From contig OZ023274.1 of NCBI GenBank assembly GCA_964007475.1, forward strand, positions 89,985,213 to 90,049,212: 64,000 nucleotides of DNA, read 5' to 3'. This stretch comes from Hybos culiciformis (lineage: Eukaryota; Arthropoda; Insecta; Diptera; Hybotidae). The number at the start of each line of letters is the position of its first letter. Position 1 is the stretch's first letter. Made by a program: the position numbers and the translations under genes. The notes below the pieces were generated by a model. The model was not told where the DNA came from and searched no databases. It was given only the letters and a program-made list of their open reading frames with translations. Positions 19,594-43,928 of this stretch are shown here, piece by piece.

Positions 19594-19924
19594 GTTATAT
19601 CATAAAGGAAGTATAAATAGAGAAACTAGTCCCATACAAAAAATGCAAATACAAATAGTGAAACAAAAATCCATATCACAACCCCATGAGCTTTTTTTTG
19701 CATTTTTTTAGAATTCCACTCTCACAAAAGCTTTTAAAACTTCAAAAATTGTATAGAACTGTTGTTATTTTGAAAGTTTTAAAAGCTTTTGTGGGAGTGG
19801 AATTCTCAAAAAATACAAAAAAAAAGCTCATGGGGTTGTGATATGGATTTTTTGTTTCACTATTTGTATTTGCATTTTTTGTATGGGACTAGTTTCTCTA
19901 TTTATACTTCCTTTATGGTTATAT
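19594..19924. mobile_element. near-perfect palindromic MITE (317 bp) with target-site duplication
   Basis: The element spans 19601-19917. The left arm 19601-19747 starts CATAAAGGAAGTATAAATAG, and the right arm 19768-19917 is its reverse complement with only a few differences, around a ~20-bp spacer. GTTATAT flanks both sides (19594-19600 and 19918-19924), a 7-bp target-site duplication (8 bp if one end base is counted). This length and the absence of a gene suggest a hAT-type MITE. The arms would form a ~147-bp hairpin if transcribed. The plus-strand open frame at 19789-19977 lies mostly inside the right arm and is not a gene. Confidence 0.85.
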
Positions 19925-30000: not shown

Positions 30001-30140
30001 TAAATTCAATATTTGTTATTTTCACAACTATGAAAATTCACATATCATTAGGGATTGTGATTGTTGAATAATGTCACTAAATAACACCAACATAATATAC
30101 TTCATTTGATGCAAATATGTGTATTATGTCGTATCGCATC
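24008..30140. other. AT-rich non-coding stretch
   Basis: About 6 kb without a recognisable gene. Small perfect palindromes occur, for example CTTAGAACG (26310-26318) against CGTTCTAAG (26328-26336). Open frames on both strands here (such as 26172-26444 and 26363-26662) overlap each other and have chance-like composition. Confidence 0.4.
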
Positions 30141-30434
30141 AATTCTCCGAAAAGACAATTGTCCCAAAACACAATTCACCGAATACACAATTCAACGAAA
30201 ATATAATTCGCTGAAAGCACCACAATTAACCGAAAACATAATTCACTGAAAGCACCACATTCAACGAAAACATAATTCACCGAAAACACAGTTCACCGAA
30301 AAAATAATTCACCGAAAATGATAGATAGGTTGAATTCGGTTAAAAATTCGCCACGAATCAAGCTGTCATAATTTTTGGTGAATTGTGTATTCGATGAATT
30401 GTGTATTCGTTTAATTGTGTTTTCACTGAATTAA
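30141..30434. repeat. 16-bp motif array in two opposed orientations (foldback array)
   Basis: The left part (30141-30320) is about eleven degenerate copies of a 16-bp unit near AATTCACCGAAAACAC, starting at 30141, 30157, 30173, 30189, 30205, 30224, 30240 and so on. The right part (about 30378-30434) carries about four copies in reverse complement (GTGAATTGTGTATTCG-like). A ~58-bp non-repeated spacer separates them. The arrangement is that of a foldback transposon with tandem subterminal repeats. No coding capacity. Confidence 0.7.
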
Positions 30435-41975: not shown

Positions 41976-41987
41976 ATAATATAATTT

Positions 41988-42155
41988 TTGATTTTTTAAT
42001 TAACGTCTGTGTTTTTTAATATCTTTTGAATATTTGTGATCGATTATACAGACATGATTTTTTTAAGTAGTTGGTGAAGTAAACTGAAAATTTTTATTTT
42101 TTAATATTTTATCTAGGAAACTTTAATTTTTTTTGAAAATTACTGAATTATTGAA
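41988..42155 (-). repeat. inverted 168-bp arm of the 675-bp unit
   Basis: This segment is the exact reverse complement of 42433-42600 in the first direct copy. It starts in the last bases of the ribozyme stem III and excludes the catalytic core. It makes a long inverted repeat with each of the direct copies, so transcripts crossing it could form perfect double strands of about 170 bp. Confidence 0.9.
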
Positions 42156-42363
42156 GATTAGAATAGGAGAAATAAAAATAAGAAATTTAACAAAAAAATA
42201 ATAATTGAATAGAGATTTCAGAAATTCATAAAGTTAATAATACAATTAATATATGAGGAATTTGATATTCAATTTATATCCATAAATAAAACCTCACAGA
42301 ACCAAAAAATAAAAAATCTTCATGCAATTTAAATAAAAATAAATTGTATAACATTCATCTCTA

Positions 42364-42435
42364 GAATTGTAAATGATAGGTATCAAGTAAATCATTCTGA
42401 TGAGTCCTAAGCTTGATACCAGGACGAAACAATTC
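42364..42435 (+). ncRNA. hammerhead ribozyme, type III, copy 1
   Basis: All conserved parts are present. Stem III GAATTGT (42364-42370) pairs with ACAATTC (42429-42435). The cleavage base A17 is at 42371. Stem I AATGAT (42372-42377) pairs with ATCATT (42391-42396). Core box CTGATGA is at 42397-42403. Stem II GTCC (42404-42407) pairs with GGAC (42422-42425), followed by GAA at 42426-42428 and then A15.1 at 42429. All stems are perfectly paired. Self-cleavage is predicted after 42371 (GTA). Stem III is the open helix, which defines type III. Loop I has GGTATCAAG (42379-42387), fully complementary to CTTGATACC in loop II (42412-42420), a likely tertiary kissing contact. Activity is inferred from the match to the universal hammerhead consensus; it has A rather than the usual C at the cleavage site, which is permitted (H). 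Confidence 0.9.
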
Positions 42436-43038
42436 AATAATTCAGTAATTTTCAAAAAAAATTAAAGTTTCCTAGATAAAATATTAAAAAATAAAAATTT
42501 TCAGTTTACTTCACCAACTACTTAAAAAAATCATGTCTGTATAATCGATCACAAATATTCAAAAGATATTAAAAAACACAGACGTTAATTAAAAAATCAA
42601 TAATTTGTGGACGTAGATCGGTAATTGTCCAAATTTGGTAATTTCTTAACTTCAATAAAAAGTTCATTTCTGGGTGGTAATGCGAAAAAGAAATTCCTGA
42701 CAATCTTCCAATTATTTGAACATAATAATATTTCATAACATAGACTCAAAACCTAGAGTCAACCTTTGAAATTTATAAAAAGTTCTCATATGGCATTTGT
42801 CGGAAAATGAAACGCAATAATACCACTCAAGATTAGAATAGGAGAAATAAAAATAAGAAATTTAACAAAAAAATAATAATTGAATAGAGATTTCAGAAAT
42901 TCATAAAGTTAATAATACAATTAATATATGAGGAATTTGATATTCAATTTATATCCATAAATAAAACCTCACAGAACCAAAAAATAAAAAATCTTCATGC
43001 AATTTAAATAAAAATAAATTGTATAACATTCATCTCTA

Positions 43039-43110
43039 GAATTGTAAATGATAGGTATCAAGTAAATCATTCTGATGAGTCCTAAGCTTGATACCAGGAC
43101 GAAACAATTC
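43039..43110 (+). ncRNA. hammerhead ribozyme, type III, copy 2
   Basis: Identical to copy 1, 675 bp downstream. Predicted cleavage is after 43046, so a transcript cut at copies 1 and 2 releases a 675-nt RNA (42372-43046) with 5'-OH and 2',3'-cyclic phosphate ends, the form that RtcB-type ligases can circularise. Confidence 0.9.
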
Positions 43111-43713
43111 AATAATTCAGTAATTTTCAAAAAAAATTAAAGTTTCCTAGATAAAATATTAAAAAATAAAAATTTTCAGTTTACTTCACCAACTACTTAA
43201 AAAAATCATGTCTGTATAATCGATCACAAATATTCAAAAGATATTAAAAAACACAGACGTTAATTAAAAAATCAATAATTTGTGGACGTAGATCGGTAAT
43301 TGTCCAAATTTGGTAATTTCTTAACTTCAATAAAAAGTTCATTTCTGGGTGGTAATGCGAAAAAGAAATTCCTGACAATCTTCCAATTATTTGAACATAA
43401 TAATATTTCATAACATAGACTCAAAACCTAGAGTCAACCTTTGAAATTTATAAAAAGTTCTCATATGGCATTTGTCGGAAAATGAAACGCAATAATACCA
43501 CTCAAGATTAGAATAGGAGAAATAAAAATAAGAAATTTAACAAAAAAATAATAATTGAATAGAGATTTCAGAAATTCATAAAGTTAATAATACAATTAAT
43601 ATATGAGGAATTTGATATTCAATTTATATCCATAAATAAAACCTCACAGAACCAAAAAATAAAAAATCTTCATGCAATTTAAATAAAAATAAATTGTATA
43701 ACATTCATCTCTA

Positions 43714-43785
43714 GAATTGTAAATGATAGGTATCAAGTAAATCATTCTGATGAGTCCTAAGCTTGATACCAGGACGAAACAATTC
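43714..43785 (+). ncRNA. hammerhead ribozyme, type III, copy 3
   Basis: Identical to copies 1 and 2, in the truncated third unit. Predicted cleavage is after 43721, releasing a second 675-nt monomer (43047-43721). The array ends 193 nt further on. Confidence 0.9.
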
Positions 43786-43928
43786 AATAATTCAGTAATT
43801 TTCAAAAAAAATTAAAGTTTCCTAGATAAAATATTAAAAAATAAAAATTTTCAGTTTACTTCACCAACTACTTAAAAAAATCATGTCTGTATAATCGATC
43901 ACAAATATTCAAAAAATAATATAATTTT

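Follow-up and report, generated by a model that had tools for sequence, protein, structure and literature searches.

The retrozymes described from metazoan genomes carry type I hammerhead ribozymes in units of 150–450 bp (Cervera and de la Pena 2020, PMC7229834), and those of plants carry type III hammerheads in units of about 700 bp (PMC4918200, PMC7761336, PMC7229834). What moves the animal retrozymes is presented as an open question. Penelope elements are strong candidates based on shared hammerheads, tandem copies and co-occurrence, and have hitherto been candidates only (PMC7229834). Here we describe a 675-bp, tandemly repeated unit with a type III hammerhead motif from the fly Hybos culiciformis, found in a 64,000-nucleotide stretch of contig OZ023274.1 (positions 89,985,213 to 90,049,212; hereafter, the window). 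Judging from sequence, the unit probably represents a non-autonomous retrozyme that is mobilised by Penelope and reverse-transcribed over several laps of a circular RNA.

Type III retrozymes have been described as elements of plants, and an element of this kind does not fit that description. Its type of ribozyme is not in itself a novelty among insects, because type III hammerheads with loop pseudoknots have been reported in termite and dipteran genomes, with further work given as 'in preparation' (PMC7936874). The preliminary description of this locus, which called the array unusual for animals, was right as regards the combination of type III with a 675-bp unit (rather than type I and 150–450 bp). 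In the titles and abstract openings that we searched, we found none on an insect type III retrozyme or on a retrozyme sharing its ends with Penelope; subscription papers and preprints lay outside this search, which is not proof of absence.

Penelope inserts are described as having direct and inverted pseudo-long terminal repeats (pseudo-LTRs), with an optional 31-bp tail on one inverted end; in rotifers the target-site duplications are 8–10 bp, and some insertions have no duplication (PMC3846280). Purified anole Penelope begins reverse transcription at two adjacent internal RNA sites, mostly at an AC-rich stem-loop, and its 30–40-bp tail is the stretch between these two start sites (PMC11167929).

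Structure of the window insertion and its hammerhead motif

An exact 675-bp period extends across 42154–43914 (plus strand), corresponding to 2.61 copies with 0 mismatches. The array is one complete insertion, consisting of an inverted arm, direct units and a 13-bp target-site duplication. We count unit phases from the predicted cleavage site, so that phase 1 is 42372. The left duplication (ATAATATAATTTT, 41976–41988) has its final base in common with the inverted arm (41988–42155, minus strand), which is the reverse complement of unit bases 42433–42600 (168/168 identical). The outer end of this arm is at phase 229 by exact match and is referred to as type B. The right end of the direct body, at phase 193 by exact match, is referred to as type A, and is separated by an extra A (43915) from the right 13-bp duplication at 43916–43928. 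The duplicated sequence occurs twice only in the window, both times flanking the array, and shared stretches of at least 13 bp were obtained for 4 of 20,000 random pairs of places. Both types of end fall within unit phase 152–236 (42523–42607, plus strand), the putative 3' priming module, which also holds a TGTCTG...CAGACG stem-loop. Tandem repetition provides a second full copy of this module at 43198–43282 and a third that is cut at end A. The preliminary description saw only a tandem array and overlooked the inverted arm, the duplication, the pairing between the hammerhead loops and the copies elsewhere; the locus is in fact a single retro-insertion of a dispersed, multi-copy family.

The unit has a GC content of 24%, and the longest open frame of the circular unit is 58 codons. 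Like metazoan non-LTR retrozymes, it is non-coding, AT-rich and arranged as tandem multimers with a hammerhead, with duplications longer than 4 bp. It differs from the published ones, which are type I and 150–450 bp, in its type III ribozyme, its length and a visible candidate helper with shared ends (PMC7229834). The type III hammerhead and a unit of about 700 bp are shared with plant LTR retrozymes (Cervera et al. 2016, PMC4918200). However, those have 4-bp duplications and GC contents above 55%, whereas the Hybos element has 13-bp duplications, a low GC content, Penelope-type ends and no purine run of 12 or more that would indicate a polypurine tract. In the predicted circle, 48% of bases are paired (z = −3.5 relative to 60 shuffles), less than the >70% of self-paired nucleotides given for retrozymes (PMC4918200).

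We identified three hammerhead motifs in the window using a strict descriptor that covered types I and III on either strand. All are type III and on the plus strand, and there were 0 matches in 150 dinucleotide shuffles of the whole window; a relaxed descriptor returned the same three motifs and 8 matches in 150 shuffles. The copies are identical and 675 bp apart (42364–42435, and, by descriptor and period, 43039–43110 and 43714–43785), with predicted cuts after A42371, A43046 and A43721. The first copy comprises a 7-bp stem III, A17 at 42371, a 6-bp stem I, CTGATGA at 42397, a 4-bp stem II (5 bp with a closing T-A pair), GAA at 42426, and A15.1. The conserved core, three stems and open-ended stem III of a type III hammerhead are all present. 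Thus, the preliminary description was accurate in its account of three identical motifs with perfect stems, every core element and these cleavage positions, and its suggestion that 675-nt monomers would be excised and could circularise fits the arrangement. The covariance-model search that it proposed bears the motif out weakly, because there was no hammerhead match at the gathering threshold in an Rfam scan of the window and the top sub-threshold match was to a type I model (Hammerhead_1, 24 bits, with a cut-off of 34; lower matches of the same clan were omitted from the table and the type III score was not displayed).

The two loops of the motif could pair with each other. The loop 1 arm (GGTATCAAG, 42379–42387, plus strand) is complementary to the loop 2 arm (CTTGATACC, 42412–42420, plus strand) over 9 Watson-Crick pairs, and 9 or more pairs were obtained in 57 of 300,000 loop shuffles. 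We compared 27 distinct type III motifs that share this stem II, namely the window motif and 26 others from viral and prokaryotic contigs. After the 9 pairs of the window motif, the next highest number of loop-loop pairs is 4, although this yardstick is rough, as the script maximised stem I length and left many other motifs with very short loops. The pattern for this stem II matched 71 stretches in viral contigs and 71 in genome contigs. Exact searches for pieces of the hammerhead motif in the viral and genome contig collections gave no match. Loop pseudoknots are reported to speed other hammerheads (PMC3088659). An open stem III and Watson-Crick contact between loops 1 and 2 are also features of the type III hammerheads of D. 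pseudoobscura, termites and flies (PMC7936874). In that source, the termite genomic motifs are described as isolated, whereas the Hybos motif is inside a complete mobile element, and in the delta-like type the loop contact spans 4 nt and helices I and II are longer, unlike the 9 nt in simple terminal loops found here.

The hammerhead is in the most conserved part of the unit. Across 36 loci, its 72 nt differ from the window copy by 1.2% substitutions, compared to 4.7% in the remaining unit. It ranks 9th of 675 sliding windows for conservation, and all 8 windows ranked higher overlap it.

Family copies and their ends

We identified at least 118 matches to the unit in the host genome (342 Mb), a lower bound because 40 of 271 candidates were scored. 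Outside the window the matches group into at least 38 stretches, although two of these (L157 and L187) look like duplicates of others (L156 and L186). One locus (L161) has two truncated copies of the unit that share a GC-rich flank, inside a larger repeat whose open reading frames (ORFs) recur 1881 bp apart.

Insertion ends are confined largely to two zones. Of 50 arm ends in a hand-compiled table, 29 are in zone A (phase 188–206), 17 are in zone B (222–238) and 4 are elsewhere; the table omits the two duplicate loci, the inverted arm of L151 (which extends to the start of its contig) and short additional matches in L167, L171, L173, L183 and L185. Phases of 5' truncations and junctions are scattered, with 1 of 50 inside either zone. 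The A end of the window insertion is tabulated as phase 197 (203 by alignment, 193 by exact period) and its B end as 234 (229 by exact arm), within the same zones. In 11 of 12 two-armed insertions an A end is paired with a B end in inverted orientation, 25–38 nt apart, and the remaining one has two A ends. This offset is the published 'tail' signature of Penelope (PMC3846280, PMC11167929), in which the tail is likewise optional and is 31 bp or 30–40 bp long. The GIY-YIG Penelope-like elements of these papers also resemble the Hybos family in having a direct tandem with an inverted arm and two adjacent internal start sites. Unlike them, the 675-bp unit has no long ORF and thus none for reverse transcriptase and GIY-YIG domains.

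Exact 13-bp duplications were found at 6 of 10 two-armed loci, compared to at most 9 bp in 90 mismatched pairings. Two loci (L177 and L163) have 13 and 14 bp under loose limits but 8 and 10 bp under strict limits, and are not counted. Two others (L152 and L180) are within simple repeats, and their duplications were left unsized. These two loci, and a Penelope copy (L218/L219), all lie on one 58-kb contig (C292), within (CTTAA)n/(TTAAG)n repeats; the repeats are possibly telomere-like or a favoured target.

Units of the same locus are almost free of substitutions. Comparison of units within each of six multi-unit loci gave 0 substitutions for 35 of 36 pairs and 0.15% for the other, whereas units of different loci differ by 3.86% on average, with a minimum of 0.60% (264 pairs). 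This pattern may be the mark left in the genome when one template is copied repeatedly. In three loci (L151, L156 and L158), the units differ by indels in the length of A runs, including A versus AA and one long run that contains C, as expected of a polymerase slipping as it repeatedly passes one template. Of seven inverted arms compared to their own bodies, five have 0 mismatches (one of the five has a gap and was matched over 717 of its 746 bases), and the L158 arm has one mismatch. One inverted arm, at 746 bp, exceeds the unit length.

A resident Penelope element as candidate helper

A search of the host genome for GIY-YIG proteins gave 51 matches, including 849-codon frames in tandem arrays. 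In one of these (L209) the 849-codon frame recurs at 3587 bp, with 1513 of 1514 positions identical; frames with the same spacing are in arrays at C1:138.48M and on C328, and the arrays are apparently recent. Homologs of this ORF (120 of 751 listed) have the PF00078 (RVT_1) domain in nearly all cases and GIY-YIG (PF01541) in some; Pfam and PDB searches with the ORF itself returned nothing useful. Upstream of the ATG at L209:2386 is an 88-bp stretch (2295–2382), preceded by what by eye is a minimal type-I-like hammerhead, in contrast to the type III motif of the 675-bp unit. Stretches of the form CTGANGA...GAAA in other GIY-YIG loci (L195, L204 and L206; L201 and L202; L203) look, by eye, like minimal hammerheads of separate Penelope families. 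With a strict descriptor that includes stems I and III, no hammerhead was found in the other GIY-YIG loci among the matches listed.

The 88-bp stretch is 75% identical to unit bases 152–236, and the stem-loop TGTCTG...ACACAGACGTTAA is common to both. The local alignment score of 63 for the end module was reached by 0 of 3000 shuffles of the module, 0 of 3000 shuffles of the region and none of 388 comparisons to host sequence (194 pieces, each on both strands), although the bounds used were chosen after the match had been seen. We identified at least 51 matches to the L209 end (40 of 106 candidates scored; about half of the rows are relatives with 82–86% identity or less). Of these, 43 stop inside the query: 18 at 2334–2350, 23 at 2375–2383 and 2 elsewhere. 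The alignment maps unit phases 190–205 to 2334–2350 and phases 229–236 to 2375–2382 of L209, i.e., zones A and B, and the right ends of two Penelope arrays stop at 2340 and 2347. Based on this homology, the resident Penelope very probably copies the retrozyme family. As the two share a priming module and stop at homologous bases, the question of the helper is directly testable.

Copying model, alternatives and other window features

One cycle could account for what is seen in the DNA itself: the hammerhead motif, the rule for the ends, the duplications, the module and end points in common with Penelope, and the identity of units within a locus. Cleavage, ligation and mobilisation by the L209 Penelope are predicted steps of this cycle. 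A multimeric transcript would be cut by the type III hammerhead, with its loops kissing over up to 9 bp, and the released 675-nt monomers would be ligated into circles. The reverse transcriptase/GIY-YIG protein of the resident Penelope would recognise the common stem-loop at phase 152–236. The target would be cut with a 13-bp stagger, and each strand would act as a primer for reverse transcription, starting either at internal site A (phase about 190–205) or at the adjacent internal site B (about 224–236). On each side, copying may continue for up to several rounds of the circle, after which the two complementary DNAs would be joined. The expected product has a direct multimer and an inverted arm, with 13-bp duplications on either side.

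A number of results weigh against this model. In the absence of pseudoknots, the predicted minimum-energy fold of the motif is a competing hairpin (−22.5 kcal/mol, compared to −10.1 to −11.7 for the hammerhead) built from the two loop 1 and loop 2 segments, although the kissing duplex would contribute about −11.3 kcal/mol to the hammerhead fold. Plant retrozyme RNAs are likewise predicted to keep the motif in a blocked form (PMC4918200), and loops 1 and 2 may make a kissing contact in the cutting form and act as a lock in the circle. We sought covariation among copies of the motif and saw none, the motif being nearly invariant. Its few changes resemble decay, and some copies (e.g., L165, L176 and L182) are altered in or next to the core. 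Under looser limits, 2 of 444 mismatched pairings also had duplications of at least 13 bp; among 25 one-armed spans, 21 had no duplication or one of at most 9 bp. The A-run differences could be due in part to assembly or sequencing error, and the L163 arm matches the body of L158 better than its own. The 13-bp duplications are longer than the 8–10 bp of rotifer Penelope. Among eight Penelope-type insertions in this genome there was one 13-bp duplication (by script) and one 14-bp shared stretch (by inspection); of the other six, one is in a simple repeat and five have at most 11 bp. When the whole unit was compared to the Penelope loci, equally high scores came from 1 of 500 shuffles and from several host stretches of this AT-rich genome; this comparison was too noisy to rely on, and the end module was tested separately. 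Finally, mutations in the hammerhead had no effect on insertion by anole Penelope in vitro (PMC11167929), and thus circles need not be the template.

The last result leads to an alternative that we consider unlikely, but that is the best placed of those considered: Penelope mobilises the family from an older array whose multimeric transcript stays linear and uncut, and the ribozyme is unnecessary for copying. Insertion ends sit about 190–236 nt beyond the cleavage site, so the template is not a cut linear monomer copied from its 3' end, which leaves an uncut multimer or a circle. Identical units would also result if the source arrays were homogeneous. However, the location of the hammerhead in the most conserved stretch of the unit argues against a dispensable ribozyme, and for arms that carry the same variant as their bodies (5/7), together with units nearly free of substitutions within a locus, one circle is the simplest explanation.

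Three further explanations are rejected. A DNA transposon of the miniature inverted-repeat type (MITE), with inverted repeats at its termini and a tandem repeat that was amplified inside it, could produce inverted ends and a 13-bp duplication at 6 of 10 loci. It is very improbable, given that the ends are homologous to a Penelope element and are not flush copies but fall at two different unit phases, that inner junctions and unit numbers vary between loci, and that one-armed copies mostly have a fixed 3' end but are truncated to varying extents at the 5' end. An origin as DNA copies of an infectious circular RNA of this insect, either viroid-like or delta-like, would be in keeping with the type III hammerheads with loop pseudoknots reported from toad and termite delta-like RNAs (PMC7936874), as well as from the insect genomes noted above. 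We regard this as highly unlikely, as the hammerhead is on the plus strand only and not in both polarities, the longest frame is 58 codons, 48% of bases are paired, and most of the at least 38 further genomic stretches have Penelope-type ends. Ordinary satellite DNA formed by unequal crossing-over, with the hammerhead as a passenger, would explain tandem identical units, and hammerheads were found early in animal satellites (PMC6155905), but the presence of target-site duplications, along with dispersed copies, recurrent ends and an inverted arm, leaves it hardly credible.

The circular-template model may have a wider implication, which we put forward tentatively, as it seems slightly less likely to hold than to fail. 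Penelope reverse transcriptase may naturally copy ribozyme-made RNA circles, and several laps from two staggered target ends may provide all such elements with their tandem pseudo-LTRs and inverted arms, with the 675-bp family being a stripped-down natural reporter of the cycle. If so, the internal RNA start, which is puzzling on a linear template, would make sense on a circle, and the 675-bp family would consist of a ribozyme and a stem-loop for priming, its type III ribozyme replacing the minimal one of the helper.

Elsewhere in the window, a palindrome-like stretch of about 110 bp (19703–19813) has matches below the cut-off to several microRNA models, on both strands, and is probably an inverted-repeat element. 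At 30140–30432, an array of 32-bp repeats is followed by a 16-bp array whose unit holds, by eye, the reverse complement of the CACAATTCA word of the first array. The window also encodes an insect cuticle protein domain (PF00379).
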